A program made the position numbers and the translations under genes. Positions 1,494 to 35,211 of a stretch of 35,211 nt of DNA are shown one piece after another. The notes beneath the pieces were generated by a model. It was not told the origin of the DNA. It did no database searches and saw only the letters and a program-made list of their open reading frames with translations. The DNA comes from a virus. The stretch is taken from positions 1 to 35,211 of the IMG/VR virus record IMGVR_UViG_3300036985_003430; one strand, 5' to 3'. Every line of letters begins with the position of its first letter. The stretch's first letter is position 1.

Positions 1494-1496
1494 ATA

Positions 1497-2399
1497 ATGC
1501 TTATCGGGAATTACAGAGTTCTGAATAAAATGATCGGTCGAACCATATCAGGATCGACGTTGAATGATCGTGCATCTTCTGGCAAAAACGGAAACATTAG
1601 AGGATTTCTTTTGAGTTCTCCCCGTGCATCTATCCCGCTTGGCGCCACCTCGCCGACATCATGGGCATTAGCTACAAAGAGCGGCGGCATTGCATCATTC
1701 ACCGGCACTAAAGGAGCTGGTAATTTAGCCAACCTAAACCTAGCTGGAGGATTGAACGGGACAGCGGCATTGACGGGAACGGGCAATATCACAAACGCAG
1801 GGATTGTTTACATCATCGTTGCATCCGCAGCGCTCACTGGTAACGGGGCAATCGCGGCGGCAATCAAAGGAGCGCTTAGTCTTGAGTCAAATCTAGTTGG
1901 CGCGGGCGCATTATCTTCTGACTTGGTTGGAGCTTTATCAGCGACAGCATCACTCACGGGAAGCGGAGACTTATCGGGAGACTTAGCAGGAGCATTGCAA
2001 GCAGTCGCAAACTTACTCGGAAGCGGTGAGGTCTCAGCCGATGTTACTGGCAGCATCCAGATGATTTCCAATCTGAGCGGCAACGGTGACGTAAGCCAAG
2101 CAGCCGCAACGATGATATGGAAGATGGTTGCAGATCTTGCTGGGTCATCGAACGTAACCGCTTCAGTTGTTGCAATAGGAAACATCATCGCAACGATACA
2201 AGGAAACGGAGAACTTACAGGCGCACCAAGAGCAACGGCGGGAGTTAGTTCAGATATTACAGTTACGGGCGATTTACTCACAACTTCCAACGTTGGAGCG
2301 GCAGTAAGAGATACACTGCTTCAAGATCTGGACACCATAAACGAAGGCGTCCAGAAGGCGTCTCTCGGAATTCCTCACTCTGACAATCTAACTAATTAA
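1497..2399 (+). CDS. Low-complexity virion-associated protein with 20-residue repeats
   Basis: A 300-residue protein rich in Ala, Gly, Leu, Ser and Thr. Residues about 125-205 are four consecutive 20-residue units starting GAL/GSI with the pattern GALxAxAxLxGSGDLSGDLA; looser units precede them. Such repeats are common in phage surface and tail-associated proteins and probably form an extended beta or fibrous region. The C-terminal tail is non-repetitive (AAVRDTLLQDLD). It follows the previous gene by 3 bases and is the last gene of its module: boundary motif GGGGGCCACT begins 3 bases after the stop codon. I cannot assign a specific function. Confidence 0.65.
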   Translation: MLIGNYRVLNKMIGRTISGSTLNDRASSGKNGNIRGFLLSSPRASIPLGATSPTSWALATKSGGIASFTGTKGAGNLANLNLAGGLNGTAALTGTGNITNAGIVYIIVASAALTGNGAIAAAIKGALSLESNLVGAGALSSDLVGALSATASLTGSGDLSGDLAGALQAVANLLGSGEVSADVTGSIQMISNLSGNGDVSQAAATMIWKMVADLAGSSNVTASVVAIGNIIATIQGNGELTGAPRATAGVSSDITVTGDLLTTSNVGAAVRDTLLQDLDTINEGVQKASLGIPHSDNLTN

Positions 2400-2400
2400 A

Positions 2401-2412
2401 CGGGGGCCACTC
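2401..2412 (+). promoter_or_regulatory. Module-boundary motif, copy 1 (CGGGGGCCACTC)
   Basis: CGGGGGCCACTC one base after the stop codon of the repeat protein and 58 nt before the ATG of the lysis-module hydrolase. Identical cores occur at 3933, 7210, 9721 and 33056, always at a junction between functional modules. The first and third copies also share ATGAC about 7 bases after the motif. Function unknown; late promoter, leader or recombination boundary are the candidates. Confidence 0.7.
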
Positions 2413-2458
2413 CAACGCCATGACTTTTGACGGCGACTGAAAAAAGGTGTGTCATTCA

Positions 2459-3052
2459 ATGAAGGCAATCATAACATTTACAGGCTTTCGTGAATCCGAG
2501 CATTCCCGCAACGGTTTCGAGGATGGATACTTTCGCGTCGTCAGAAACTTCGCGTCGAAAGAGATCACGACTTATCAGCCGCGCACATGGACGACGAAGA
2601 TTGAACAATTAGCCGACCAACTCAGGCGGCAAAATGTAACGAGCGTTGCGATTCTAACCTATTCTCACGGGCAAGCAGCGGCAACGGCATTTGCTCGATA
2701 CGCCTACGAGATCGGGCTTGATGTCGATTTATGGATTGCTTGCGATCCGGTTTATCGCCCGACATGGTTGCCGCGTTCAACCATGTTTCAGCCGTTCGCG
2801 TTCCGTGCCATGCTGAAAAAAGGAACGATCAAAGTCCCGAAAGGCATTCGCCGCGCCGTGTATATCCGCCAAGAGCGCGACAGGCCATGCGGTCACGATC
2901 TAGTCGCATCAAATCCAGATCAAACAGTTGAGCTTAAGGGCGCGTATCATTCATACGGCCATTCACAGATCGATGAATCGAGTGAGTATTGGAACCTCGT
3001 TCGGGAAGAACTAACCGCGTGGGCAAATCCACCTAAAGCATTCTTACCATGA
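2459..3052 (+). CDS. Alpha/beta-hydrolase-like protein of the lysis cassette
   Basis: Counting from ATG 2459 the protein is 197 residues; a GTG at 2447 in frame would add four residues and is less likely. The segment AILTYSHGQ (residues 64-72) resembles a serine-hydrolase nucleophile elbow with Ser69 in S-H-G. Asp96 in ACDPV and His164 or His168 in YHSYGHSQID fit the order Ser-Asp-His of a catalytic triad. It lies directly upstream of a small membrane protein and the amidase and overlaps the former by 4 bases, so an accessory lysis esterase or lipase, analogous to LysB, is plausible. That role is inference from position; the fold assignment rests on three short motifs only. Confidence 0.6.
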   Translation: MKAIITFTGFRESEHSRNGFEDGYFRVVRNFASKEITTYQPRTWTTKIEQLADQLRRQNVTSVAILTYSHGQAAATAFARYAYEIGLDVDLWIACDPVYRPTWLPRSTMFQPFAFRAMLKKGTIKVPKGIRRAVYIRQERDRPCGHDLVASNPDQTVELKGAYHSYGHSQIDESSEYWNLVREELTAWANPPKAFLP

Positions 3053-3159
3053 TCCAGCCCGGCGTAGAACCCAAAGACCGCTTGCGACATCTTTACGATG
3101 TCGCAGTCACCGCCGTCATCATCACGGTAGCCGCGGCAATCTTAAAATACACCTCATGA
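3049..3159 (+). CDS. Small membrane protein, holin candidate (36 aa)
   Basis: A 36-codon frame with ATGA overlaps on both sides: its ATG (3049) overlaps the hydrolase stop and its stop (3157-3159) overlaps the amidase ATG. The N-terminus is charged (EPKDRLRH); residues about 18-33 form one hydrophobic segment (VAVTAVIITVAAAIL) ending in KYTS. Perfect translational coupling within a lysis cassette supports a real gene. Size and single membrane segment would suit a small holin or pinholin, but it could be a leader peptide only. Confidence 0.6.
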   Translation: MIQPGVEPKDRLRHLYDVAVTAVIITVAAAILKYTS

Positions 3160-3710
3160 AAAAGATCATCATACTAGACCCCGGCCACGGAATGAGCAAT
3201 CGCAAGCAAGGCGTGTTCGATCCGGGCGCAGTATCTAGCGGAATAACTGAAGCTGATATTGTCATGGAATGGGCGAACGAATTGCGGGAAGTTTTACTGA
3301 ATAGAGGCAAACGAGTAGTCCGAACCCGCGTCAGCCATTCCGACCCAGCGTCCATCAGCGAAAGAGCCAAGATAGCGAAAGATTATCACGGCGACATAAT
3401 GTTATCGCTTCATTGCAACGCCTCGGACGGAAAAGCCAGCGGAACAGAGACGTTTTACCGAGGGACAAATCATAAGACAAAAGCTGCAAAAATCACTGCT
3501 GCTGTATGCGGTGCGCTAGGGACAAGGAACCGAGGCGCGAAGACCGAAAGCGAGAGTCAGCACAGCACCATCGCCATCATGTCATTTCAGCCGTGCTTCT
3601 TGCTTGAAATCGGATTCATCGACAACGCATCGGACAGAGCGAAAATGATCGATCCTGATTTAAGGCTATCCGCTTGCAACGCAATAGCGGAAGTACTGCT
3701 AAACGCTTAA
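3156..3710 (+). CDS. N-acetylmuramoyl-L-alanine amidase (Amidase_3), endolysin
   Basis: A 184-residue protein consisting of a bare Amidase_3 catalytic domain, which cleaves the amide bond between MurNAc and the stem peptide of peptidoglycan. The zinc and catalytic residues of the family are all in place: His11 in DPGHG, Glu32 in GITEAD, His86 in SLHCNA, Glu151 in LLEIGFI. There is no signal peptide and no separate cell-wall-binding domain, so it needs a holin for export. Translation is coupled to the upstream small membrane protein by a 4-base overlap. This is the most secure gene of the lysis cassette. Confidence 0.93.
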   Translation: MKKIIILDPGHGMSNRKQGVFDPGAVSSGITEADIVMEWANELREVLLNRGKRVVRTRVSHSDPASISERAKIAKDYHGDIMLSLHCNASDGKASGTETFYRGTNHKTKAAKITAAVCGALGTRNRGAKTESESQHSTIAIMSFQPCFLLEIGFIDNASDRAKMIDPDLRLSACNAIAEVLLNA

Positions 3711-3928: not shown

Positions 3929-3932
3929 ACAA

Positions 3933-3944
3933 CGGGGGCCACTC
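3933..3944 (+). promoter_or_regulatory. Module-boundary motif, copy 2 (CGGGGGCCACTC)
   Basis: CGGGGGCCACTC 5 bases after the stop of the lysis module and 54 nt before the portal ATG. Same 12-mer as copies 1, 3 and 4. Confidence 0.7.
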
Positions 3945-3986
3945 TCACACGGCGACACACGCGAGAGACGCTGGCAATCTCAGCGC

Positions 3987-5708
3987 ATGGGAAAAATCTT
4001 AGATTTCGTTAAGTCCGCATTCACGCCAAGCGGTGAAGAATTAGTGACGGCGGCATCAGATCGCAATGATTCGCTCTCTCAGTCGATCAATCTACCGATG
4101 GCGAGGGACAGAATGCTTGAGTTTTTCGAGCGCGAGCAGTTACCGGGCGACGTAAAGCAAACGCTTGCCGCTGCTTTGAATGGCGATCTTCACTATCAGC
4201 ATCTTCTCTTTACGGCTATGATTGACTCATGGCCGAAGCTGCAATCGAACATCGGAGAAATTGCAAGAGCGGTCGCTGACTCACCGTGGAAGGTAATGCC
4301 GTTTGCTATTCGTGGCGACGATCCAACGCCAGAGTCAGAAATACTCGCGAAGGAGATCGAGGAAATCGTATGGAGAATGAAGCCGGACGTTAAGCGCGGC
4401 GAAAACAACCTGGAAGAGATGATCTCCACGTTCGCGATGAGCTATTTCATCGGACATGAGGTAGAAGAAATTCTTTGGAGCAAGGATAAAGACGGAATGT
4501 GGAAGCCACGCGCCACGAAGCCGGTTCCTGCGCGTTTCTTCGGCTATCCCTATGACACGATGCGTCACGGCGACGACAACGAAGACAGGCTGATGCTTGA
4601 CACCAGTGGACTGACGGGGAGCCGGAACTACGTCGATTTCCCAGACAACCGTTTCCTGATCGGGATCAACAAAGGACACATCGGACACGCCTCAGTCGCA
4701 GCACCTCTCCGAGCTCTCGCTCCCTACTGGCTCGCTGCCGTCTATGGTCTCAAGTGGTTTATGAACTTCACTCAGCTTTACGGCATCCCATGGAGACACG
4801 CCGAAGTAGCAGACCCGAAAGATGACAACGCAGTTGCCAGCATGCTCGCAGGCATCGGAAGTCGTGGTTATCTCATCACTCGACCTAAAACGAAGATAAA
4901 CCTAGTGGAATCGTCCAAAGGCGGAGGAAACCTACCGCAGCGCGAGCTTATCGACCTAGCTGACAAGCAGTGCGATACGTTCATCCTTGGACAAACCCTG
5001 ACCAGCGGAACAGATGGAAGCGGAAGTCGTGCGCTTGGAGAGGTTCACGCCGACACGAAGCAAGCGAGAATTGATGCAGTTTGCGATTTCGTCGGGCGCG
5101 TTCTCACTTATCAATTCATCCCCGCAATCATCGCCGTCAACTATGGCACCGGACGTGAAGACGCGCCGGAGATATGGGTAAAGCGTGAGATCGTGAAAGA
5201 TGAGAAAGCCAAGGCCGAGCGCATGGAAATTCTGACCCGCATGAACTTGCCGATGTCAGAGGCTTTCGTTTATGAGGACCTCGGCGTGCCTATCCCAGCG
5301 GAAGGCGACAAACTTTTTCAGCTCGTCCCTGTAAGGACTCCAGAGGTTACACAAAAAGGAACGCCACCACCTGACGAGACTAAGGACGAGCTGAAAGCAA
5401 TTCAAGCGGCTGCTGCCGCATCAGATAAACTCAAAACCGTGGACATGCTCGCTGATTCCGTGCTCGAGAGCCTAACGGGAGTCACCCGCGAATGGCTCTC
5501 ACCTGTCCGCCCAGCTTTTGAACGTCTCGCAGCCCTAGCAATGTCCAAAAGCGTCACCGATGAAGACTTCATGGCCGCGCTCGACAAAGCTCAGAAAGAA
5601 ATGCCTGAGCTATTCGACCGGATCAAAACCGAAGCCCTGCAAGATGCTTTCGAGAAAGCAATCGGAACGGCCATGATCGCCGGAAGCGTCAAACGATACG
5701 AAGAATGA
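3987..5708 (+). CDS. Portal protein, Mu gp29-like (DUF935)
   Basis: 573 residues, close to the Mu-type portal length. Portal proteins form the dodecameric ring at the capsid vertex through which DNA is packaged and to which the tail attaches. Typical family features are FTAMIDSWPKLQSNIGEIARAV-like N-terminal helices, the RAxKPVPARFFGYPYD segment, and WFMNFTQLYGIPWR in the middle, followed by GTDGSGSRALGEVH. The C-terminal 120 residues are Ala/Glu-rich and helical. It is the first gene of the head module and overlaps the next gene by 4 bases. The assignment rests on these motifs plus the following Mu-type genes. Confidence 0.88.
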   Translation: MGKILDFVKSAFTPSGEELVTAASDRNDSLSQSINLPMARDRMLEFFEREQLPGDVKQTLAAALNGDLHYQHLLFTAMIDSWPKLQSNIGEIARAVADSPWKVMPFAIRGDDPTPESEILAKEIEEIVWRMKPDVKRGENNLEEMISTFAMSYFIGHEVEEILWSKDKDGMWKPRATKPVPARFFGYPYDTMRHGDDNEDRLMLDTSGLTGSRNYVDFPDNRFLIGINKGHIGHASVAAPLRALAPYWLAAVYGLKWFMNFTQLYGIPWRHAEVADPKDDNAVASMLAGIGSRGYLITRPKTKINLVESSKGGGNLPQRELIDLADKQCDTFILGQTLTSGTDGSGSRALGEVHADTKQARIDAVCDFVGRVLTYQFIPAIIAVNYGTGREDAPEIWVKREIVKDEKAKAERMEILTRMNLPMSEAFVYEDLGVPIPAEGDKLFQLVPVRTPEVTQKGTPPPDETKDELKAIQAAAAASDKLKTVDMLADSVLESLTGVTREWLSPVRPAFERLAALAMSKSVTDEDFMAALDKAQKEMPELFDRIKTEALQDAFEKAIGTAMIAGSVKRYEE

Positions 5709-6313
5709 TTCAGATCGATGTCAGTATCGACAGCAAGGTTTCCGAGGAACTCGGCGCGTTGATCGACTCGCTCACGGGCAGCGGATTAACTGACCTCAAC
5801 GAGGTCGGAGGTAGACAGGCGAGGGAAGGGGCGGAGACGTATCACCTAGCATTCAGCCAGCGCGGTGGATGGAAGGGTGGTCGCTACATGCAAGGCTCAC
5901 TTGGAAAGTCCGGAGAGTTCGGATCAAAAGTCGCGGCTGGCTGGTCATTTCGCACCGCTGATCCATCCGGCGCAGTGATCGGAAACAATGCGGATTACTA
6001 CGCTTTTAAGGTGAATGGAGGAACGATCACACCGAAGCGCGTTTCATGGCTCACTATTCCGCTGATTCCAGATGCGAAAGGCCGACGCGTTGCTGATTAT
6101 GAGATTTACGCCAGAAAGAAACTCTTTCGGCCAAAGGGGAAGAATGTGCTCATGGAAAAGACCGATGACGGTGGAGTGCGCGGCGTTTATGCACTTGTGA
6201 AAAGCGTCACCATGCCGCCGATGCCGGACGCGATACCGCCCGAAGAATTACTTGCTGACGAATTCTCGAAAGGCTGGCTCGATGCTCTAACTGATAAACT
6301 TGAACTCTTATGA
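5705..6313 (+). CDS. Virion morphogenesis / tail-completion protein (gpG-like)
   Basis: 202 residues, between portal and minor head protein and coupled to both by ATGA overlaps. The N-terminus MIQIDVSIDSKVSEELGAL and the central SWFRTADPSGAVIGNNADYYA-type stretch followed by GGTITPK resemble the Mu gpG / HK97-gp10-like group of head-tail joining proteins. In Mu the corresponding gene lies near gpF. The assignment is by pattern and position; a strict family call needs a profile search. Confidence 0.55.
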   Translation: MIQIDVSIDSKVSEELGALIDSLTGSGLTDLNEVGGRQAREGAETYHLAFSQRGGWKGGRYMQGSLGKSGEFGSKVAAGWSFRTADPSGAVIGNNADYYAFKVNGGTITPKRVSWLTIPLIPDAKGRRVADYEIYARKKLFRPKGKNVLMEKTDDGGVRGVYALVKSVTMPPMPDAIPPEELLADEFSKGWLDALTDKLELL

Positions 6314-7209
6314 TCACTCAGCCCATGCTTTATGAGGACGCAATCCGCTTCATCCTCGACAAGAACCCCAACCCGCGAGAATGGGATTCGACATCGTGGG
6401 CAAGCGAAGAAGACGCGGTAAAGTTCCGCTCGTTCTTTTCGTCACGGGTTGAGAACGCACGTTTTCTTGATCGAGCGCAGGCTTTCATTTTTGACTACAT
6501 GGCAGGAACTACTGAAAAGGTTGTTTCGCCTAGCGGAGTTGAAAGCATTGCTATTCGGGCCGGTGGCCGTGCCGAGTTCGTCCGGGCGATGCGTGTCTTC
6601 ATGGTCAAGGAAGGCATGGCGAGCGAGGGTGAATTCTCAGAGGTGAACCAAAACGATTTATCCACCATCAAAAGCGAAAGCCGCCTACGCCTGATCTTTG
6701 ACACGAACGTGCGACAAGCCTACGGGTTCGGGAATTGGAAGCAAGGGATGACACCCGCGGTTCTTCGCCGCTTTCCGGCTGCTCGCCTCATTCGCAAGCG
6801 CAAGGTCGGGATCGAGCGCATGAGACACGCAGAGCATGAAGGCGACGTGAGGCTGAAAACTGATGAAGGATGGTGGGCGATGTATCAAAACGACCCACAG
6901 ATCGGCGGCTTCGGGGTGTCATGGGAGCCGTATGGCTTTAGATCAGGCATGGGACAGCAGGACGTTAGCCGAGAAGAAGCGAAGCGGTTAGGGCTGGAAG
7001 TCGATGACGTGAAGGAAACCGCAAAGCCTCCCGAACTCAACGAAGGGTTGAGCGCGAGCGTCAAGACGATGAATCCCGACGTGAAGAAACGATTGCTTGA
7101 TGAATTGAAGCAGAAACGCCAGTCGCTAGGCAGCAAGACCGCCGACGATTATGCACGCGAAGCCGTTGCTAGAATCAGGGAAAAGGAAGATCGGATCGTC
7201 ATGGATTAA
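6310..7209 (+). CDS. Minor head morphogenesis protein, Mu gpF-like
   Basis: 299 residues. The segment LRLIFDTNVRQAYGFGNW (about residues 122-139) is the signature of the Mu gpF / SPP1 gp7 family, minor capsid proteins bound to the portal that help DNA entry or head assembly. It is followed by an R/K-rich piece and RHAEHEGDVR, where the family often has a His-rich metal-like region. The C-terminal 70 residues are predicted helical and charged. The gene ends the portal module; copy 3 of the boundary motif starts on the base after its stop. Confidence 0.82.
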   Translation: MITQPMLYEDAIRFILDKNPNPREWDSTSWASEEDAVKFRSFFSSRVENARFLDRAQAFIFDYMAGTTEKVVSPSGVESIAIRAGGRAEFVRAMRVFMVKEGMASEGEFSEVNQNDLSTIKSESRLRLIFDTNVRQAYGFGNWKQGMTPAVLRRFPAARLIRKRKVGIERMRHAEHEGDVRLKTDEGWWAMYQNDPQIGGFGVSWEPYGFRSGMGQQDVSREEAKRLGLEVDDVKETAKPPELNEGLSASVKTMNPDVKKRLLDELKQKRQSLGSKTADDYAREAVARIREKEDRIVMD

Positions 7210-7221
7210 CGGGGGCCACTC
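7210..7221 (+). promoter_or_regulatory. Module-boundary motif, copy 3 (CGGGGGCCACTC)
   Basis: CGGGGGCCACTC immediately after the stop codon of the gpF-like gene and 55 nt before the GTG of the protease/scaffold gene. Followed by CCACAGAATGAC, comparable to CAACGCCATGAC after copy 1. Confidence 0.7.
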
Positions 7222-7264
7222 CCACAGAATGACATTGTGAGGTTTTCTTGCTCAATTTCACAGC

Positions 7265-8281
7265 GTGCTTCAACTCGTTACATCAGCCAACCTTGTTACT
7301 GCGATTTCCTTTTCCGGAAATAGCAGCGAAGCACCTGCTGAAATCGTATTCCTACCAGAGGGAAGCCATAAGATTTTCCCGCTGTCTAACAAAAACGGCA
7401 TTCAGATTCACATTCCAGCCGACAAAGGCGAAGCAATCGCAGCCGCTCTCAATAAAGACCTGCAGAAGCGCATGGGCGACCCAGTAAAGCCTTGGACTGA
7501 CTTTGAGCACACCCGCAAGTTCCCGGCATCTGCTTACCCGACTTCCTTCCGTTACGAAAAAGGGAAGGGCGTCATGGCTGCGATGGACTGGTCGAAAAGT
7601 GGTCGTGATGCAGTAGAAGGTCGCGACGTCCGCTATTTCTCGCCCGAATTTTACGTAGATAGCAACGGATTCCCTACCGGCTTACCGCTAAAAGGTCCAA
7701 TCGGCGGATTAGTCACCGAACCCGCATTCCGAGACATCGGAGCTATTGCAGCCAGCGAATCACACCAAACAAACACTACAAACATGACACTAGTATACGC
7801 CTCCCTCTCGATCAGCGCAGCCGCTGAAAATGCAGAAACCGAAGCTGTAAAAGCTATCGAAAATCTTAAAGTAAAAGCAGCCGATGCAGATCGCCTTGAG
7901 ACTGAAAACAAGGATCTCAAAACTAAAGTTGAAGCAGCCGAGGCGAAAGAAGTCGAAGCCGTCAAACAACGCGCCTCTGATCTTGTGAGCGCAGCCGTCA
8001 CAGATGGCCGCTTGCTCGCTAAAGACACCGAGAAGCAAGACAAGTTCCGCGAAAAGATTTCAGCAGGTGACAGCTTTGCTGAAGAAATTCTTGCTCAGCT
8101 TCCAAAGCTCAATGATGAACTCGGCAATCCAATCGTCAAAGCAGGCGCGGCAGCAGGCCAAGACAGCGAAACTCGCGTTACTGCCGCTCTCACATCTGCT
8201 CGCGCCGAGCTGGGCGAATCCGCTGGCTTCCAGATCGTCTGGGAACGCGCCGCCGAAATCGATCCTCGAGCATTCGCATAA
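7265..8281 (+). CDS. Capsid maturation protease with fused scaffold (Mu gpI-like)
   Basis: 338 residues from a GTG start; no in-frame ATG lies upstream within the gap. Residues 1-165 resemble the phage I-like protease: DFEHTRKFPAS, GVMAAMDWSKSGRDAV, RDVRYFSPEFYVDSNG and LVTEPAFRDIGAIAAS are typical of the Mu gpI family. Residues about 180-260 are Ala/Glu/Lys-rich and coiled-coil (DADRLETENKDLKTKVEAAE), as expected of a scaffold. In Mu the protease gene contains a second in-frame start that gives the scaffold gpZ; an equivalent ATG exists here at 7784. The position directly before decoration and capsid genes is conserved. Confidence 0.85.
   Translation: MLQLVTSANLVTAISFSGNSSEAPAEIVFLPEGSHKIFPLSNKNGIQIHIPADKGEAIAAALNKDLQKRMGDPVKPWTDFEHTRKFPASAYPTSFRYEKGKGVMAAMDWSKSGRDAVEGRDVRYFSPEFYVDSNGFPTGLPLKGPIGGLVTEPAFRDIGAIAASESHQTNTTNMTLVYASLSISAAAENAETEAVKAIENLKVKAADADRLETENKDLKTKVEAAEAKEVEAVKQRASDLVSAAVTDGRLLAKDTEKQDKFREKISAGDSFAEEILAQLPKLNDELGNPIVKAGAAAGQDSETRVTAALTSARAELGESAGFQIVWERAAEIDPRAFA
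7784..8281 (+). CDS. Possible internal scaffold product (gpZ-like, nested in protease gene)
   Basis: An in-frame ATG at 7784 (MTLVYASLSIS) lies exactly between the protease-like half and the coiled-coil scaffold half and is preceded by an A/C-rich stretch similar to the leaders of the neighbouring capsid genes. It would give a 165-residue scaffold protein. In Mu the scaffold gpZ is made in this way from gene I. Here it is inference from that precedent and the position of the ATG. Confidence 0.4.
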   Translation: MTLVYASLSISAAAENAETEAVKAIENLKVKAADADRLETENKDLKTKVEAAEAKEVEAVKQRASDLVSAAVTDGRLLAKDTEKQDKFREKISAGDSFAEEILAQLPKLNDELGNPIVKAGAAAGQDSETRVTAALTSARAELGESAGFQIVWERAAEIDPRAFA

Positions 8282-11961: not shown

Positions 11962-13515
11962 ATGGCAGCAGACCTAACAGGACTTACACCGGGCGGAGTG
12001 GACGACACTTACAAATGGCTCGCTCATTTCGGCGTTCAAGGCGCGTTACCAGCGGACGGCGGGACTCCCGTGGCCCTATACAAGGGCGACGGCACGGCAA
12101 CGCCCATTGCTATGACTGCTACGAAACTATTCGTCAACGGGATCGAGGTATTGGCCGCGAAAAACAAGTTGAACGCGACAGTTGCGCCAACCGTAGACGA
12201 TGACGTGACTTTCAATTACTCAGTCGGATCGAAATGGTATGATCTGACCGCTCAGGAAGCATACCTTTGCTTTGACGCCACCAACGGCGCGGCCGCATGG
12301 GAGAAAGCCACGCTGACCGCTGATGAGCTTGGAGACGCTGCCTTTAAGAATACCGGCACTGGCGCGGGAACGGTAGCTGCTGGCAATGACAGCCGATTCG
12401 CCGATGAGCGCGTCCCGACCGCAGCGGGATTGACGAGTAAATTCGGAACCAACAAAGCCACGATTGCGAACGGCGACAAAGTTACGATTCTCGACTCAGC
12501 CGTATCATTCACGCCGAAGCACGTCTTGTGGAGTTTGATCGTATCGACTCTAACCGCGGCATTCAACTCGCTATACGCCACCGCAGCACAAGGAACGACC
12601 GCAGAAGGAGCGTTGCAGCGGTCAGGCGGGACGATGACGGGAAATATAAAAGGCACGCAATTGCTCGCAGACGACGACTCTCAATCTGTCCTACCTAATA
12701 CTCGCCGACTCATCGGCAGTGACGGCACGACAACCACAGTAGATTGGTCTGGCACAGGCTATAACAGCGGCGCAGCTATGAGCTTTGCAATCGGAGGTTA
12801 CGATTACTCGGTGCAATTTGGATTCAACGCCAACGGTAACAACTACGGAGTAGCAGTGGGCGTCAATTCCAACGGCTACAACGGCGGAGCAGCAGTGGGC
12901 TACAACGCCAACGGTAACACCAGCGGAGCAGCAGTGGGCTACTATGCCAACGGTAACACCAGCGGAGCAGCAGTGGGCTACTATGCCAACGGTAACACCA
13001 GCGGAGCAGCAGTGGGCTACAACGCCGACGGTAACAACGGCGGAGCAGCAGTGGGCTACAACGCCAACGGTAACACCAGCGGAGCAGCAGTGGGCACAGG
13101 CGCCTATGCCACTTACGGTGGGGTCGCTCTAGGCAACTCCACCAGCGTCGACACAAGTCAAACTAACACCGACAACTCAGGTAACATTGCTATCGGTGGG
13201 GACTTATCATATGTTAACTGCGCCAAAATCGCAGGCGGTCTACTTGATACGGTCATGCTCGGACGCGGCACAGCACCAACCCAAGGTCTTTGGTATGGCG
13301 TAAACGGCACAGCTTATCAGGTGATGGATGGCAGCGGCAGCATTAAAGCGGGTCTTCCAATCGTAACTGCAACTTACACGGTTGGCACTGTTCCAAGCGC
13401 GGTAACTTATGCACGAGGTTTAATCTACGTTCCCAACGAATTGGGCGGCGCGGTTATCGCTTTTTCAGACGGCACAAACTGGAGACGAGTTACAGACAGA
13501 GCAATCATTTCATAA
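11962..13515 (+). CDS. Tail fibre / adhesin with Hep_Hag-like repeats
   Basis: 517 residues. Residues about 121-147 carry the common fibre motif GTGAGTVAAGNDSRF. Residues about 296-378 are six near-perfect 13-residue repeats GAAVGYNANGNTS plus one degenerate copy; this periodicity matches the left-handed beta-roll heads of YadA-type trimeric adhesins (Hep_Hag). The end (VIAFSDGTNWRRVTD) is a frequent fibre C-terminus. A receptor-binding role, probably as a trimer, is likely. An AGGA lies 10 bases before the ATG. Its place between tail tube and tape measure is unusual for a fibre gene. Confidence 0.75.
   Translation: MAADLTGLTPGGVDDTYKWLAHFGVQGALPADGGTPVALYKGDGTATPIAMTATKLFVNGIEVLAAKNKLNATVAPTVDDDVTFNYSVGSKWYDLTAQEAYLCFDATNGAAAWEKATLTADELGDAAFKNTGTGAGTVAAGNDSRFADERVPTAAGLTSKFGTNKATIANGDKVTILDSAVSFTPKHVLWSLIVSTLTAAFNSLYATAAQGTTAEGALQRSGGTMTGNIKGTQLLADDDSQSVLPNTRRLIGSDGTTTTVDWSGTGYNSGAAMSFAIGGYDYSVQFGFNANGNNYGVAVGVNSNGYNGGAAVGYNANGNTSGAAVGYYANGNTSGAAVGYYANGNTSGAAVGYNADGNNGGAAVGYNANGNTSGAAVGTGAYATYGGVALGNSTSVDTSQTNTDNSGNIAIGGDLSYVNCAKIAGGLLDTVMLGRGTAPTQGLWYGVNGTAYQVMDGSGSIKAGLPIVTATYTVGTVPSAVTYARGLIYVPNELGGAVIAFSDGTNWRRVTDRAIIS
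12847..13119 (+). repeat. Tandem 39-bp repeats in the fibre gene
   Basis: Seven consecutive 39-bp units starting at 12847, 12886, 12925, 12964, 13003, 13042 and 13081. The core GGAGCAGCAGTGGGC is identical in six and has one change in the first. Two adjacent units are fully identical. Unit length is a multiple of 3, so copy number can change without breaking the frame. Confidence 0.95.
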
Positions 13516-25790: not shown

Positions 25791-26105
25791 ATGACAACAC
25801 GCAGCACCTCAGAAATCACCGCAGACCTTAAATCAGCAACCGCAGAGCGCGCACAATATCGCGCGCTGCATAATGAGGGGCAAGGCGGATATGCAACCGA
25901 CAAAAAAATCGAGCAACTTGCCGCCGAGTTGACCGCAGCCGTAAAAGCTCAATCACCGCTTGCAACCCTCGCGGGAATTGAAACGGCTCGTGCATGGGCA
26001 AAAGAGCAAAACTGGACTGCTAAAGATATGCAAGCAGCTAACAATGCATGCCTTGCTCGTGGATACTCATTATCTGAGCTGCAAGCCGCTATTAAGACCA
26101 TCTAA
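25791..26105 (+). CDS. Unknown accessory protein (104 aa)
   Basis: 104 residues, helical, Ala-rich (SEITADLKSATAERAQYRAL, ETARAWAKEQNWTAKDMQAA). First gene after the promoter; the leader CAAACCAACCGACCAACAAA has no Shine-Dalgarno sequence. No family recognised. Confidence 0.55.
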   Translation: MTTRSTSEITADLKSATAERAQYRALHNEGQGGYATDKKIEQLAAELTAAVKAQSPLATLAGIETARAWAKEQNWTAKDMQAANNACLARGYSLSELQAAIKTI

Positions 26106-26130
26106 TTCACCCCACTAACACGACACGACA

Positions 26131-26150
26131 CAAACCAAACCAAACCAAAC
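26131..26150 (+). repeat. CAAAC-type leader repeat
   Basis: Four tandem CAAAC units with no ribosome site, 7 bases before the next ATG. A very similar leader stands at 26465-26491 before another gene and a looser one at 25771-25790. Possibly an unstructured translation enhancer. Confidence 0.6.
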
Positions 26151-26156
26151 AAAATT

Positions 26157-26453
26157 ATGAAAAACATCATCATTGCATCCAAACGATCAAACACCGGCAG
26201 CATCCACGATCTTGCAACCGACGCCATGAACCGGGTAATCAAAATCCCGGCAAGCGCCGGATACATCATCATTCTTGCCGCCTACTATGGCGGCAAGGGT
26301 TACAGCACTCACTCCACCGCTGAGGCCGCGGGCAAAAAAGTAAAAAACCTTATAAAAAACAACTACAGCTTCCGGGTTTTTGACGCTGATGGATCATACC
26401 TCGATTGGGATGGGTGCGATTTCCGGAGAGGGGATGCAAATCGTGACCTGTAA
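26157..26453 (+). CDS. Unknown accessory protein (98 aa)
   Basis: 98 residues, alpha/beta; YIIILAAYYGGKGYSTHSTA in the middle and FRVFDADGSYLDWDGCDF at the end. The terminal 'DADGSYLDWDG' recalls the repeat units of the following genes, so it may belong to the same group. Leader of CAAAC repeats. No function assigned. Confidence 0.5.
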   Translation: MKNIIIASKRSNTGSIHDLATDAMNRVIKIPASAGYIIILAAYYGGKGYSTHSTAEAAGKKVKNLIKNNYSFRVFDADGSYLDWDGCDFRRGDANRDL

Positions 26454-26493
26454 TAGCATGATCCCAAAAAACCAACCAAACCAAACCAAACAT

Positions 26494-26706
26494 ATGACAA
26501 TCGCACAGCAACTAAAGATCAAGGACTTCCCGTTCATCATCAAAGATAAAAACGGCAATCAAATCTATCATGAAAACGCCGATGGCTCTTGGTGCAAAAA
26601 AGAACATGATGCCAATGGCAAAAAAATCTATCATGAATACTCCACTGGATATTGGTGGAAAAGTGAACGTGATGCAAATGGCAATGACTATGGTAAATAC
26701 GACTAG
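26494..26706 (+). CDS. Repeat protein 1 of 4 (MORN/YD-like units), shortened
   Basis: 70 residues from ATG 26494. N-terminal cap MTIAQQLKIKDFPFIIKD, then two 21-residue units of the type DANGKKIYHEYSTGYWWKSER and a broken third. The stop at 26704-26706 is followed by GGTGTTATCAGAGATAGCC, which closely matches the sequence coding for VIRDN in repeat protein 3, so this copy has lost its normal end. A terminator follows. The units resemble MORN_2/YwqK and YD-type repeats, which make beta surfaces; biological role unknown. Confidence 0.6.
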   Translation: MTIAQQLKIKDFPFIIKDKNGNQIYHENADGSWCKKEHDANGKKIYHEYSTGYWWKSERDANGNDYGKYD

Positions 26707-26742
26707 GGTGTTATCAGAGATAGCCTAGCAACTCCTAGCAAC

Positions 26743-26772
26743 GCCTCATCCTCTCGCGGGGATGGGGCTTTC
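26743..26772 (+). terminator. Rho-independent terminator between repeat proteins 1 and 2
   Basis: GCCTCATCC (26743-26751) pairs with GGATGGGGC (26760-26768), 9 pairs with one wobble, 8-base loop, then TTTCT. Genes 2-4 then need their own promoter; the short 20-base leader offers only AT-rich hints (ACTATAAACAT). Confidence 0.7.
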
Positions 26773-26792
26773 TGGGCGCAAACTATAAACAT

Positions 26793-27236
26793 ATGACAAT
26801 CGCACAACAACTAAACGTAACCGCATTTCCGCTCATTATCAATGATGCCAATGGCAAAAAAATCTATCATGAAAACTCCGATGGCTCTTGGTGGAAAAGT
26901 GAACGTGACGCCAATGGCAAAAAAATCTATCATGAATACTCCTATGGCTCTTGGTGGAAAAGTGAACGTGACGCCAATGGCAATGAAATCTATCATGAAT
27001 ACTCCTATGGCTCTTGGTGGAAAAGTGAACGTGATGCCGATGGCAATGAAATCTATTTTGGAGACTCCAAGGGCTTTTGGTTGAGGTATGAACGTGATGC
27101 CGATGGAAAAGAAATCTATCATGAAAACTCCAATGGCTCTATCAGAGACAATCGACCAAAGCAAGTCGAACTAACGCTCGAACAGATCGCAGCTAAGCTC
27201 GGCATCAGCGTATCGCAACTTAAAATCAAAGACTAA
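26793..27236 (+). CDS. Repeat protein 2 of 4 (five 21-residue units)
   Basis: 147 residues: cap MTIAQQLNVTAFPLIINDA, four full units (e.g. DANGNEIYHEYSYGSWWKSER) and a partial fifth ending SIRDNRPK, then LTLEQIAAKLGISVSQLKI, which looks like a helix-turn-helix or a short helical hairpin. The same C-terminal piece closes repeat protein 3. The stop and the next ATG are separated by one base, so genes 2-4 form one array. Confidence 0.65.
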   Translation: MTIAQQLNVTAFPLIINDANGKKIYHENSDGSWWKSERDANGKKIYHEYSYGSWWKSERDANGNEIYHEYSYGSWWKSERDADGNEIYFGDSKGFWLRYERDADGKEIYHENSNGSIRDNRPKQVELTLEQIAAKLGISVSQLKIKD

Positions 27237-27237
27237 T

Positions 27238-27621
27238 ATGAAAACAATCGCACAGCAATTAAACGTAACCGCATTTCCATTTAGAATCAAAGATGAAGAT
27301 GGTAAAAGAATCTATGGTGAAAACTCCGATGGCTATTGGTGGAGATGTGAACGTGACGCCAATGGCAAAAAAATCTATTTTGAAGACTCCGAAGGCTCTT
27401 GGTGGAAAAGTGAATATGATTCCAATGGCAATCAAATCTATTTTGAAGACTCCAATGGCTTTTGGTGGAGATGTGAATGTGATGCAAATGGCAAAGAAAT
27501 CTATTATGAAAACTCCAATGGTGTTATCAGAGACAACCGACCAAAGCAAGTCGAACTAACGCTGGAACAGATCGCAGCTAAGCTCGGAATCAACGTATCG
27601 CAATTAAGAATCAAAGACTAA
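27238..27621 (+). CDS. Repeat protein 3 of 4 (four units)
   Basis: 127 residues: cap MKTIAQQLNVTAFPFRIKD, units such as DSNGNQIYFEDSNGFWWRCEC, ending VIRDNRPK and LTLEQIAAKLGINVSQLRI. Cap DNA is nearly identical to that of gene 4, which shows recent duplication. Confidence 0.65.
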   Translation: MKTIAQQLNVTAFPFRIKDEDGKRIYGENSDGYWWRCERDANGKKIYFEDSEGSWWKSEYDSNGNQIYFEDSNGFWWRCECDANGKEIYYENSNGVIRDNRPKQVELTLEQIAAKLGINVSQLRIKD

Positions 27622-27622
27622 T

Positions 27623-28144
27623 ATGAAAACAATCGCACAGCAACTAAACGTAACCGCATTTCCATTCAGAATCAAAAATGCCGATGGTAAAAGAATCTAT
27701 GGTGAAAACTCCGATGGCTTTTGGTGGAGATGTGAACGTGACGCCAATGGCAAAAAAATCTATGGTGAGCACTCCGATGGATATTGGTGGAAAAGTGAAT
27801 ATGATTCCAATGGCAATCAAATCTATTTTGAAGACTCCAATGGCTATTGGTGGAAAAGTGAATTTGATGCAAATGGCAATGAAATCCATTGTGAATACTC
27901 CACTGGCTATTGGCGGAAAAGTGAACATGATTCCAATGGCAATCAAATCTATTTTGAAGACTCCGACGGCTCTTGGCGGAAATGGGAATTTGATGCAAAT
28001 GGCAATGAAATCTATTATGAAGATTCCGATGGTTATTGGAGCAAAAGAGAATATGACAGATTTGGCAATAAAATCCATTATGAAGACTCCGATGGTGTTA
28101 TCGTAGACAACCGACCAAAGATCAAAACCGAGCTAACCGAATGA
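27623..28144 (+). CDS. Repeat protein 4 of 4 (seven units)
   Basis: 173 residues: cap MKTIAQQLNVTAFPFRIKN, seven 21-residue units, ending VIVDNRPKIKTELTE. It lacks the IAAKLGI tail of genes 2 and 3. Aromatic residues at fixed places in each unit (IY, W, WW, E-Y) suggest a regular beta stack. Overlaps the next gene by 4 bases. Confidence 0.65.
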   Translation: MKTIAQQLNVTAFPFRIKNADGKRIYGENSDGFWWRCERDANGKKIYGEHSDGYWWKSEYDSNGNQIYFEDSNGYWWKSEFDANGNEIHCEYSTGYWRKSEHDSNGNQIYFEDSDGSWRKWEFDANGNEIYYEDSDGYWSKREYDRFGNKIHYEDSDGVIVDNRPKIKTELTE

Positions 28145-28371
28145 TAAAACGACCAGTAGGCCGACCGCTAGGCAGCGGCAAAGGAAGAAAAATGAAATCA
28201 TCTAGCTTGTCGATGATGCCTGAGCAATGGTCAAAAATGGACAAGCTATCCGGCGGCAAGAAACACCGCTCGGCATGGCTTAGAGCGATGATCGATCAAC
28301 ACAAAGATAAACAATATGAGCGAAACACCGACACATCCAGAATTGTGCGAAAACTGCAATCCCTTAGTTGA
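28141..28371 (+). CDS. Ribbon-helix-helix-like small DNA-binding protein
   Basis: 76 residues. RPVGRPLGSGKGRKMKSS is an AT-hook-like basic start; SLSMMPEQWSKMDKLSGGKK and HRSAWLRAMIDQH fit strand-helix-helix. Same plan as the protein at 19260. Likely a local transcription regulator. The last 19 residues overlap the next gene. Confidence 0.6.
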   Translation: MIKRPVGRPLGSGKGRKMKSSSLSMMPEQWSKMDKLSGGKKHRSAWLRAMIDQHKDKQYERNTDTSRIVRKLQSLS

Positions 28372-28657
28372 GTCATCTAGGCTTGAATGGGTCAAAGTAG
28401 GGGGGATGAATATAGGTCTACATCGCCAACCGCTGACTTGGGTTTTACGCGATAAATACTCCGATGACGTGATAAAAATGAACGCCAAGTATTCACAGAA
28501 ACTTGCTACTAAATCCCGCGAGCTTGCCGACATGGCAGCGCGGCTAACCACAATCACCGAACAGCGGGACAGACTGGCAAAGGCATTGGGTGAAATCAAA
28601 AGAACCGACTCAAGAAAGATAGATAAATATGAGCGAGGAAATCAAAAGAGAGTTTGA
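28316..28657 (+). CDS. Unknown protein with coiled coil (113 aa)
   Basis: 113 residues; starts inside the preceding gene in another frame (56 bases overlap). N-terminal Cys pair (CENCNP) and a long helix SRELADMAARLTTITEQRDR typical of small phage early proteins. No family recognised. The long overlap makes the start less certain; an internal ATG at 28409 is an alternative. Confidence 0.5.
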   Translation: MSETPTHPELCENCNPLVESSRLEWVKVGGMNIGLHRQPLTWVLRDKYSDDVIKMNAKYSQKLATKSRELADMAARLTTITEQRDRLAKALGEIKRTDSRKIDKYERGNQKRV

Positions 28658-28832
28658 GGAGTGGGCTTTATCACGAGGATTAAGCACTAAGAAGCTATTA
28701 CCTGTATCTGAGATTTACTACATGGAATCTATGCAAAGAGCATGGGAAGCATGGCAAGCGGCTAGGAATCAGCGTCACTCTGATGAGTTGCACGATCAAA
28801 CCATAATCACGGGGACAACTCCCGAAAGTTGA
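28629..28832 (+). CDS. Small early-type phage protein (67 aa)
   Basis: 67 residues: FEEWALSRGL and MQRAWEAWQAARNQ are the hallmarks of a very common small phage protein family ('FE.wa...g......WeaWqAa') of unknown function. Overlaps the preceding gene by 29 bases. Its 3' end contains CACGGGGACAACTCCCG, a degenerate look-alike of the boundary motif. Confidence 0.65.
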   Translation: MSEEIKREFEEWALSRGLSTKKLLPVSEIYYMESMQRAWEAWQAARNQRHSDELHDQTIITGTTPES

Positions 28833-28865
28833 CCTCTTCGACTAGCAAAACGATAAAATGCGAAT

Positions 28866-29501
28866 ATGACTCCGAAGCAAATAATGACCGCGAAAAACAT
28901 TGAAATCGAAACACTGCAAACCGCAGATTTAATCCCTTACGCCCGAAACGCCCGAACGCACTCAGATGCGCAGGTTGCACAGATTGCAGGATCGATCCGA
29001 GAGTTCGGCTTCACAAACCCCGTCCTGATCGACAGGGAGAACGGCATCATCGCTGGGCATGGACGAGTCCTAGCAGCGCAAAAGCTCGCACTAAATAAAG
29101 TCCCGTGCATCCGGCTAGGCTATCTGAACGAGAAACAGAAACGCGCTTACATCATCGCAGACAACAAGCTCGCGCTGAACGCCGGGTGGGACGAGGAGAT
29201 GCTCGGCATCGAGCTGGCGGACTTGCGTGAGGCTGACTTTGATCTTGGATTGCTGGGCTTTGATGAGTCCGAGCTTGGTTCTTTTGACGTGGAAGAAGGC
29301 GACATGCCTGAGCTATCAAGTGATGACAAGCAGCCGTTCCAGCAGATGACCTTCACCGTCCACGACGAGCAAGCCGAGGACGTGCAAGCGGCAATGACGA
29401 AAGCAAAATTTATGGGGCATGGAGAATCCGCTGTGAACGAAAACAGCAACGGCAACGCGCTGGCGTTTATCTGCCAATCCTTCAACCGGGCAAATCCATG
29501 A
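28866..29501 (+). CDS. ParB-like (ParB/Srx nuclease-fold) protein
   Basis: 211 residues. The N-terminal 110 residues are a ParB domain: LIPYARNARTHSDAQVAQIA, GFTNPVLIDRENGIIAGHGR, VLAAQKL and AYIIADNKLALNAGWDEEM. In phages this domain without the central helix-turn-helix is often found beside DNA methylases or modification enzymes; here the Mom-like gene follows with a 4-base overlap. The C-terminal 90 residues are acidic and unrelated. It may bind or nick DNA, or read CTP as ParB does; not testable by sequence. Confidence 0.82.
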   Translation: MTPKQIMTAKNIEIETLQTADLIPYARNARTHSDAQVAQIAGSIREFGFTNPVLIDRENGIIAGHGRVLAAQKLALNKVPCIRLGYLNEKQKRAYIIADNKLALNAGWDEEMLGIELADLREADFDLGLLGFDESELGSFDVEEGDMPELSSDDKQPFQQMTFTVHDEQAEDVQAAMTKAKFMGHGESAVNENSNGNALAFICQSFNRANP

Positions 29502-30268
29502 TAAACACAAAATCAAATCCATTTCTTGCAGAATGCAGAGTGTCGCCAATCAGCCTAAAGGATGCGCGCAAGATCACGGTGGCAAAGCATTACATGGGGA
29601 CTTGGCCACAAGGCGCAAAGGTCGCTTTTGGGCTGTTCAAGAAATCAAAATGCGTCGGCGTGATGGTTGCTGGGTATGCTCCAACGACGGAAAGAAAGGT
29701 AGCCAAGTGGTGCCGAAAAATTCAGAAGAGCCAATACATCGAGCTGCAAAGGACTTGGATCAGCGATGAGATGGGTCACAACACAGAATCATGGATGATG
29801 GCTCGCGTCATGCGTCTTTTCAAAAAATCCGGAGTTTGGCTTGTAATGACTCACAGTGGAGGATGCAAGGATGACGTCGGATTCATATTTCAAGCTTCTG
29901 GATGGCTTTATTTTGGTGCCGATCCATGCAATGATTTTTACGAAACAGAGCGTGGCGAATACAAAAATCTTGTAAGCGCAATGAGATTTGGACGCGTCAG
30001 CAAGGATATTTTGAAACGCGGTCAACAAGCAATCGGCGAGCATCTATTTGGCGCAGGTAAAATTGTAAATGCTCGACGCCACCTCTACATCTACCCGATC
30101 AATCGCGGATTACGGCAACGATTGAAAAAACAAACATTGCCATTTCCAAAAAATCCTGCTATCTATCGCCTCGATCAAAAGTGGCATCCCGCAAACGGAG
30201 TTGTGAGCACGGGGCTTAAACCTGCAAAGGTTTCTGATTCAATACCAGACAACTCCGCCATTTTATGA
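29498..30268 (+). CDS. Mom-like DNA modification protein 1 (GNAT fold, divergent)
   Basis: 256 residues. Alignable by eye with the second Mom-like gene: KHYMG (His31-Tyr32) with CHYSG, VAFGLF with LHFGVF, YIELQRTWI with [17 protein letters not shown] with TIYRASGF, and LPF near the end. Mom of Mu turns adenine into N6-carbamoylmethyl (glycinamide) adenine and so protects phage DNA. Here the Asp and the Tyr of the second motif are His and Phe, with two extra residues, so substrate or activity may differ. From codon 234 the frame runs through a tRNA-like element. Confidence 0.75.
   Translation: MINTKSNPFLAECRVSPISLKDARKITVAKHYMGTWPQGAKVAFGLFKKSKCVGVMVAGYAPTTERKVAKWCRKIQKSQYIELQRTWISDEMGHNTESWMMARVMRLFKKSGVWLVMTHSGGCKDDVGFIFQASGWLYFGADPCNDFYETERGEYKNLVSAMRFGRVSKDILKRGQQAIGEHLFGAGKIVNARRHLYIYPINRGLRQRLKKQTLPFPKNPAIYRLDQKWHPANGVVSTGLKPAKVSDSIPDNSAIL
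30197..30260 (+). ncRNA. tRNA-like cloverleaf nested in the 3' end of Mom-like gene 1
   Basis: 64 nt ending in CCA (30258-30260). Acceptor GGAGTTGT pairs with ACAACTCC over 8 pairs, discriminator G257. D-like arm AGC/GCT with GGG in the loop. Anticodon-like stem AAACC/GGTTT (5 pairs) with loop TGCAAA. T-like arm CTG/CAG around the loop TTCAATA preceded by A and followed by C. The loop is 6 nt, the variable region absent, so it is a compact, non-canonical tRNA; if T is position 33 the anticodon would be GCA. Read from the sequence by hand. Confidence 0.6.
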
Positions 30269-30536: not shown

Positions 30537-31277
30537 ATGAGCGCAAAGAAGATTATTGTGAAGCCGATCAGCTCGCAAGACGCGGCGCGAATCGTAAAGT
30601 CTTGCCACTACTCGGGCAAGGTGGTGCCTAACTCGCAACTACACTTTGGCGTTTTTCTGAATGGAAAATGCGGCGGAGCGATGCAGTTCGGACCATCTAT
30701 GCGCAAGGATCTAATCCAGGGGCTTGTGCGGGATACGGGATGGAATGGATTTATCGAACTCAACCGCATGGCGTTTGCCGATTGGCTGCCGCGCAACTCG
30801 GAGAGCCGTGCAATATCCGTAGCGTTACGATTGATCCGCAAAGCATACCCCCATATTGAATGGGTGATTTCATTTGCGGACAGCACGCAATGCGGAGACG
30901 GCACCATCTACAGGGCGAGCGGCTTTGTTCTGACCGCAATCAAAAAAAACACCGAGCTGGTGATCAACCCAAGAACGGGTGAGACAATGGCGACAATGGC
31001 CGCATATCATAAAGGATACGCATCGGAGATTTCAAAATGGGAAAAGCTATCTGGCCACATGCTACGCTACATCTACTTCCTCAACCCGGCGGCACGAGAA
31101 CGCTTGACTGTGCCGATTTTACCATTTACTGAAATCCAACGTCGCGGTGCAGGAATGTATCTCGGCAAACCAAAACGCGCCGGAAGTGACACGAAGGACA
31201 CGGCAGACTTCCAGTCTGCAAAGGACGGTTCAACCCCGATCCCGGCGCTCCACTCGCAACCTACGTCCAAACCATGA
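30537..31277 (+). CDS. mom: Mom-like DNA modification protein 2 (GNAT fold)
   Basis: 246 residues (Mu Mom is of similar size). His24-Tyr25 in [16 protein letters not shown] (residues 72-80), and Asp115 ... Tyr125 in [19 protein letters not shown], with the spacing of ten residues, match the His-Tyr and Asp/Tyr residues proposed, as I recall, for the Mu Mom centre. Expected role: N6-carbamoylmethylation of adenine in phage DNA against host restriction. The conserved part ends near residue 212 ([10 protein letters not shown]); the last 33 codons are the tRNA-like element and a short tail. The gene precedes the terminase genes. Confidence 0.85.
31177..31252 (+). tRNA. tRNA-Gly(UCC)-like element nested in the 3' end of Mom-like gene 2
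   Basis: 76 nt, the standard tRNA length, with encoded CCA (31250-31252). Acceptor GCGCCGG (31177-31183) pairs perfectly with CCGGCGC (31242-31248). D-like stem GTG/CAC, loop with GG. Anticodon stem GCAGA/TCTGC perfect; loop CTTCCAG is 7 nt with T33 and anticodon TCC. T-loop TTCAACC; T-stem imperfect, best with a bulged A (GGACGG with CCGATCC). Discriminator T73, C2-G71, C35 and C36 are the bacterial glycine identity positions. A8 replaces the usual T. It is either a modified tRNA-Gly, a remnant or a dedicated tRNA-like RNA. Confidence 0.65.
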
Positions 31278-34549: not shown

Positions 34550-35211
34550 ATGGCGGGATTTGCGTCAGTATCAGAGCTAGCATCTGCTGAGGAATCCGGC
34601 AAGGTCAGGTATTCTAGCTTTAGGAAACAATCGAATCAGATTTCCCCTCAGGGAATATGGTTTGATCTTTCTTTGTCTGCCGGTTTCCCCTCGCCTCAGT
34701 ATTACGCAGCGACCCCTTTAACTGCCATCGCGCTAACCCAATCAGGCGATGGAGGGTTATCTCACGGAGGTAACGTATCGCCTTTGACTAAGCACGTTCG
34801 TCACATCATGGCAATGACCACGACAGCAACGCCATTGCCAATGCCTATGATGCTTCTGGATTATCTCATGTTCTACCCGTTCATCGACGAGGGCACAACT
34901 GATGAGCAATTCCTAACGAATACAGTCACCCTGCCCCGCTACACGACAGGCGCGGGAGTTAAGATCATGGCGGTATCAGTGGCAGGTCGAACAGGTGGAC
35001 AATCGTTTTTTGTGAACTACACCAACCAAAACGGAACAGCGGGTAGAATCAGTTCAACAGTCATTCAAAATTCAGTATCAGTGAACGGATCAATCGTGAC
35101 AAGTGATAGGGCTATTGCGAACGCATCAGGCGCATTTATCCCGCTCCAAGCTGGCGATACTGGAGTAAGAAGTATTCAAAGCGTGACCATGCTCGGCGGC
35201 GATGTGGGATT
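34550..35211 (+). CDS. Virion structural protein, N-terminal part (continues at position 1)
   Basis: Starts ATG 34550 (MAGFASVSELASAEESGKVR) and leaves the window at 35211; with 128-326 it makes 286 residues. Contains LSHGGNVSPL, TTTATPLPMPMMLLDYLM and LPRYTTGAGVKIM, all mirrored in the paralog at 339-1493, but lacks the inserted beta domain. Function likely virion surface or tail-linked; no named family recognised. Confidence 0.8.
   Translation, partial: MAGFASVSELASAEESGKVRYSSFRKQSNQISPQGIWFDLSLSAGFPSPQYYAATPLTAIALTQSGDGGLSHGGNVSPLTKHVRHIMAMTTTATPLPMPMMLLDYLMFYPFIDEGTTDEQFLTNTVTLPRYTTGAGVKIMAVSVAGRTGGQSFFVNYTNQNGTAGRISSTVIQNSVSVNGSIVTSDRAIANASGAFIPLQAGDTGVRSIQSVTMLGGDVG
35085..35211. repeat. 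Terminal direct repeat, right copy (circular contig overlap)
   Basis: Exact copy of 1-127; see the left copy. Confidence 0.93.

Follow-up and report, generated by a model that had tools for sequence, protein, structure and literature searches.

A tandem array of small YD-repeat proteins in an uncultivated phage, part of a large and almost undescribed phage family

Introduction

YD repeats are known as the material of toxin-storing shells and from neuronal adhesion receptors such as teneurin. Proteins of the RhsA type use a PxxxxDPxG autoprotease motif (PMC8765631). In phages the nearest cultured point of reference is Verrucomicrobia phage P8625, a lytic siphovirus whose host is a marine Opitutae strain (PMC4642752), and its gp42 is the only clear relative among cultured phages of the proteins that we describe here. 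The motif TIAQQL was not found in the papers searched, and searches on YD-repeat families of phages returned nothing on this one. What is already known is the YD repeat class; what is new is a free-standing, small, multi-copy phage version of it, which forms a large family that is almost undescribed.

The array lies in IMG/VR virus record IMGVR_UViG_3300036985_003430, whose 35,211 nucleotides are the window analysed here. The exact direct terminal repeat formed by its first and last 127 bases (1-127 = 35085-35211) makes it likely that the genome in the record is complete. With P8625 as the clear cultured relative, and a terminase closest to those of Akkermansia phages (42% identity), we infer that the host probably belongs to the Verrucomicrobiota. 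Elsewhere in the window, the open reading frame at 11962-13515 (NANGNTSGAAVGYY), a protein of the virion region, carries a 39-bp repeat in seven copies (12825-13095) that resembles a YadA-like head repeat.

Results

Organisation of the array

The features of the array are listed below; L121 is a 20-kb contig from a near-identical phage.

26471..26491, plus strand: CCAAA pentamer repeat leader, directly 5' of gene 1 and shorter by one unit in L121
26494..26706, plus strand: gene 1 (70 aa); short form, conserved; cap and two full units, closing with a short DYGKYD end
26704..26792, plus strand: spacer between genes 1 and 2; begins at the stop, holds a terminator-like hairpin (11 bp, GC-rich) and a remnant of coding sequence for GVIRD; nearly all identical in L121
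26793..27236, plus strand: gene 2; cap, five units (the last a DNRP capping unit), tail kind A
27153..27233, plus strand: gene 2 tail module, kind A (IAxKLGI..QLKIKD)
27238..27621, plus strand: gene 3; cap, four units, tail kind A; AlphaFold pLDDT 92.1
27538..27618, plus strand: gene 3 tail module, kind A
27623..28144, plus strand: gene 4; cap, seven units, no helical tail (end KIKTELTE); AlphaFold pLDDT 94.2

All four reading frames open with an N-terminal cap, M(K)TIAQQL....FP(F/L), followed by 21-residue units, and Tandem Repeats Finder detects a 63-bp period in each of them (scores 172-451), which confirms an earlier sequence-only reading of the locus as four tandem genes with a common cap and repeat. 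By count genes 1 to 4 have 2, 5, 4 and 7 units, as that reading had estimated, with a further fragment of a unit in gene 1, and its placing of a C-terminal helical tail in genes 2 and 3 (QVELTLEQIAAKLGI.VSQL.IKD) and none in gene 4 holds as well. In genes 2-4 the array of units ends in a capping unit, ..IR/VDNRPK. A single base separates gene 2 from gene 3 and gene 3 from gene 4 (TAATATG), which suggests that the three genes lie on one transcript. The first three units of gene 2 are 92-97% identical to each other, and genes 3 and 4 have units in common at 94% identity. A second CCAAA pentamer repeat, at 26130-26155, also stands directly before a gene; shuffled sequence gave zero chance matches to these two repeats (26130-26155 and 26471-26491).

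Gene 1 had been read as a cut-off copy with its former end visible after the stop. The remnant is real, as GGTGTTATCAGAGA after the stop matches the end of gene 3, but the reading of a broken copy had to be corrected. In L121 gene 1 has the same short form with the DYGxYD end kept (94% nucleotide and 88.6% amino-acid identity to the window), and the segment 3' of the stop is identical over roughly 80 nt. This post-stop segment, with its 11-bp hairpin, has a minimum free energy of -33.7 kcal/mol (z -3.5). Because both the short form and the segment recur in L121, gene 1 on this comparison is not a fresh wreck: its short form is old and has been retained, with a terminator-like element behind it. 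The hairpin spacer (26718-26778) also occurs in contig L156, at 86% identity over 66 bp; blastn gave no other match between L156 and the window, and no repeat genes were found in L156. We offer the reading that this spacer may be a recurrent terminator or a small mobile element; an Rfam search of the window gave no match.

The repeat unit and its predicted fold

Among 479 collected units the consensus has Asp at position 1 (86%), Gly at position 4 (85%) and Tyr at position 21 (69%), which is the repeat of about 21 residues with a YD..G motif that characterises the YD/Rhs class. The distance from the cap to DNRPK is an exact multiple of 21 in 108 of 128 distinct copies from viral contigs, and these copies hold 2 to 9 units. 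In an hmmsearch against solved Rhs chains, the family profile found six at E-values of 5.4e-6 to 4.7e-5, with Tse15 (8uy4) at 5.4e-6, RhsP (8h8a) at 9e-6, Tse5 (8cp6) at 1e-5 and RhsA (7q97) at 5e-5; the alignment runs without gaps over about four 21-residue periods in E-Y-D register. Homology to the solved YD-repeat shells is thus seen at the profile level, and single-sequence matches are weak: with the Pfam model RHS_repeat, gene 4 reaches E 0.29, below the gathering score, and the best of 24 members 5.7e-4.

Structure prediction, which the sequence-only reading had proposed as a check for beta stacks, agrees with this assignment. AlphaFold models genes 3 and 4 (pLDDT as listed above) as beta strips with two strands per unit, and an antiparallel strip of this kind is indicated by prediction, from AlphaFold and from Foldseek and VIA comparisons. 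Rhs, teneurin and Tc proteins account for all of the best 25 Foldseek matches in the PDB, and structure matches by VIA cover 89 residues (Z 11.1, rmsd 3.0 Å) and 164 residues (Z 13.3, rmsd 8.6 Å).

Pfam, PHROGs and NCBIfam hold no family for the whole window proteins. Matches to SH3, B3, sigma-70 region 4, glucan_65_rpt and mad1 were set aside as short or sub-threshold. No PADLOC model matched over the protein body, the one match being 21 tail residues against the 60-position model mad1 (E 2.8e-5). The likeness of tail kind A to Sigma70_r4/HTH is weak (E 0.009-0.2 over 16-20 residues), and AlphaFold shows one 8-residue helix and a short turn there. On sequence and models we place the units in the YD repeat class, and the proteins outside the Rhs effector family because they are too small for a cocoon (median 127 residues among 297 family reading frames, longest 697) and because the PxxxxDPxG motif occurs in 0 of these 297.

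A large phage family with copies that expand within lineages

A profile built from 24 members showed that at least 163 stretches in viral contigs encode a relative, and 75 loci from among them were retained. The highest numbers of profile matches per record are 29, 19, 17, 16, 16 and 14, where long genes may count twice or more; the 29 belong to a 72.7-kb record, where 21 capped copies lie in separate islands within the first 53 kb. Bacterial and archaeal genomes, scanned twice, yielded only two short contigs, of which L045 looks phage-like, and a cellular origin was rejected on these grounds.

The cap is nearly invariant across the family, and the tails fall into at least four kinds: IAxKLGI..LRIKD (A), KAIELLTKEGLLVDGKILK, VVEIDGKKYKLTEI and EYTMEELxxKLGxxFKIKK. 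Tail kinds are mixed in 0 of the 23 records that have at least two classified copies, against a mean of 18.9 and a minimum of 13 after shuffling, and for 68 of 116 copies the nearest paralogue lies inside the same record, where 5.6 would be expected. Since tails are unmixed and nearest paralogues share a record, these comparisons indicate that each phage lineage expands its own copies. Tail kind A may itself be a copied cap, as hhalign aligns the two over 19 columns in a weak, short match (P 1.8e-5, probability 78%). We also considered whether the tail is a tag common to other phage proteins and rejected this, as six whole records have kind A only on family members and on one orphan remnant. 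A tblastn search with three tails against cultured phages returned P8625 or chance-level matches only.

Two unusual arrangements were noted. In contig L017 an orphan kind-A tail without cap or units (3930-3999) lies just 5' of an intact copy and looks like the fossil of a lost copy. Contig L119 has larger frames (5290-7380 and 2017-3108; 697 and 364 aa) in which several blocks of YD units are embedded between other domains.

Unit turnover and selection

Most structural genes of the window and L121 are 92-100% identical in nucleotide sequence, with dN/dS of 0.02-0.33. Gene order in the array is the same, and the unit numbers are 2/4/3/4 in L121 against 2/5/4/7 in the window; in genes 2-4 the one-to-one correspondence of units is lost. 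Contigs L096 and L120 have flanks 99.5-99.9% identical and arrays that differ by exactly two units, a difference that could reflect assembly collapse of repeats, and in L028 and L031 (94-97% identity) the second gene has 3 and 2 units. In several other near-identical contig pairs the unit number is stable, and all of these counts come from metagenome assemblies, which can collapse tandem repeats. Duplication and recombination, as proposed from the sequence, are nevertheless supported, both by unit numbers that differ between near-identical phages and by units that are nearly identical within and between genes of the window. Stable numbers with no sign of recombination, which would have spoken against the proposal, were not the outcome of this comparison, though several pairs are stable.

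Not all of the divergence is special to the repeats. Against L121, dN/dS is 0.68 for gene 1, and it is 0.58 and 0.90 for the neighbours at 28141 and 28316; the region around the cluster, 26101-29275, diverges more than the structural block as a whole. Because these neighbours are also high in dN/dS, the whole segment appears to be fast-evolving or mosaic, and part of its divergence reflects mosaic exchange.

Within the units we compared 315 close pairs from 32 loci. At the strand positions 9, 11, 17 and 19, pN/pS is 1.68 (95% bootstrap 1.27-2.59), a value obtained by simple counting between paralogues and for which only the bootstrap excludes 1; neutral simulations of these positions gave 0.65-1.27. 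When variable positions were chosen on half of the loci and tested on the rest, pN/pS was 1.88 (1.32-3.03). In contrast, the ladder positions 8, 10, 16, 18 and 20 have a pN/pS of 0.14 (0.04-0.45). These counts point to purifying selection on the ladder residues and an excess of amino-acid change at alternate strand positions, and the contrast supports the changing selection that had been suspected for this family. We do not claim a clean sheet with one variable face, as strand parity with turns of four and five residues suggests that both faces mix fixed and fast positions.

Genome context

Upstream of the array lies RecT, together with exonuclease-, nuclease- and helicase-loader-like genes that were named by eye. 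Downstream are a ParB-like protein and two adjacent Mom-family DNA-modification genes (29498-30268 and 30537-31277; Pfam Mom E 2e-37 and 1.6e-52). The Mom stretch is missing from L121, where a ParB/DNA-methylase-like reading frame, read by eye, stands instead; one reading that we offer is that the two phages may have exchanged anti-restriction cargo. In other phages the genes beside family members include Erf, RNA ligase, polynucleotide kinase, DNA ligase, primase/helicase, thymidine kinase and thymidylate synthase. Judged by these neighbours, the setting appears early and concerned with DNA metabolism, not structural, and it includes ordinary metabolism genes. The repeat proteins show neither an evident signal peptide nor a membrane segment.

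Discussion

The explanation that we favour, tentatively and at a little under even chance, is that these proteins are modular binding strips, expressed early and used in the conflict between phage and host, probably for counter-defence. A counter-defence role is plausible, and the evidence for it is context and selection. The short N-terminal cap would seed an antiparallel beta strip, to which each 21-residue unit adds two strands and which the DNRP(K) unit closes; in most family members a short C-terminal tail follows. The strip would be the binding surface, with the ladder residues holding the sheet; point changes at alternate positions, changes in unit number and the shuffling of copies could each retune its specificity. 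The cap, and the tail where present, would be constant handles, and the array would allow new combinations by recombination, possibly aided by the phage RecT. Acting inside the cell early in infection, the proteins would most likely bind and neutralise, or decoy, a variable host component, for example a defence protein.

The genes that adjoin the array also bear on the alternative that survives best, a housekeeping scaffold whose copy number sets the dosage, such as a chaperone or an organiser of the replication complex. Replication and recombination neighbours and a tail that is constant within each phage would suit such a protein, but fast change at alternate strand positions and gain and loss of units between near-identical phages would be unusual for it, and we regard it as unlikely. 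Somewhat less likely again is neutral or selfish expansion, in which a slippage-prone repeat spreads through phage genomes without function. In its favour are the ease with which repeat DNA slips and recombines, the presence of copies that are truncated or have internal stops, and the orphan tail in L017; against this stand the constrained ladder positions, the nearly invariant cap, the intact state of most copies and the retention of gene 1 as a one-to-one orthologue.

The sequence-only reading had also named antigen-like or adhesin families, and this part finds no support. YD-repeat strips do occur in teneurin adhesion proteins, and diversifying selection with unit turnover would fit a surface ligand, so that an adhesin or receptor-binding decoration of the particle, varying with the host surface, is conceivable. 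It is improbable, however, given proteins with no evident signal peptide or membrane segment and an array that sits beside RecT, exonuclease- and helicase-loader-like genes, outside the structural block, with early neighbours in other phages too; moreover, none of the 207 distinct reading frames listed was recognised as being fused to a tail or fibre protein. Least likely is that the proteins mimic or cap the shells of host Rhs/YD polymorphic toxins and so play a counter-toxin or immunity-like part. Although the units are directly homologous to Rhs cores, the shared part is only the generic repeat, and neither a linked toxin gene nor a linked immunity gene was recognised.

Returning to the binding strips, a broader form of the idea is that phages at large possess a modular binder system, with a constant cap, a strip that diversifies at alternate strand positions and in unit number, a phage-specific tail and up to tens of copies. 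Recombination between these copies would yield new specificities against the defence factors of the host, and the system would be a viral counterpart to recognition repertoires built from repeats. We hold this more doubtful than the favoured explanation. At the least, many uncultivated phages carry stand-alone, multi-copy, fast-evolving YD-repeat proteins; if these have host defence factors as their targets, the course of the arms race would be readable in the arrays, and the cultured phage P8625 offers a direct route to testing such binding.

Comparison with known systems

Several described repeat proteins are alike in part. Short repeats are likewise found in DUF6745 (HREDGPA) proteins, but their unit sequence is different, and no DUF6745 was detected in the proteins of the array; in contig L075 a 585-aa protein (1436-3190) joins three HREDGPA blocks of the DUF6745 type to a complete cap-unit-tail protein. 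Predicted models of YwqK-type and MORN-repeat viral proteins are weakly alike (BFVD E about 0.02), and the MORN and YwqK models in Pfam and NCBIfam gave no sequence match to the window proteins.

The repeat unit of P8625 gp42 (AKA60293.1) is the same as in the window family, at 53% identity, and its tail is of kind C (EVDGKKYKLTEL). It differs in being a single copy, annotated as hypothetical, with the N-terminus MKKLSDTYKELGIDFTFPIVI in place of TIAQQL...FPF.

The Rhs/YD cores (RhsA, Tse15, RhsP and Tse5) and the teneurin and TcC shells share with our proteins the 21-residue period, the [E]YD..G motif, two strands per unit and the predicted fold. The Rhs and Tc shells are closed cocoons of about 100 kDa, whereas the window proteins, at 70-173 aa, are predicted to be open strips. 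In Rhs effectors the autoprotease motif precedes a variable C-terminal toxin, and in the phage family no appended toxin was recognised. Compared with the Rhs cores, the phage proteins have a different N-terminal cap and tail, and many copies in each phage.
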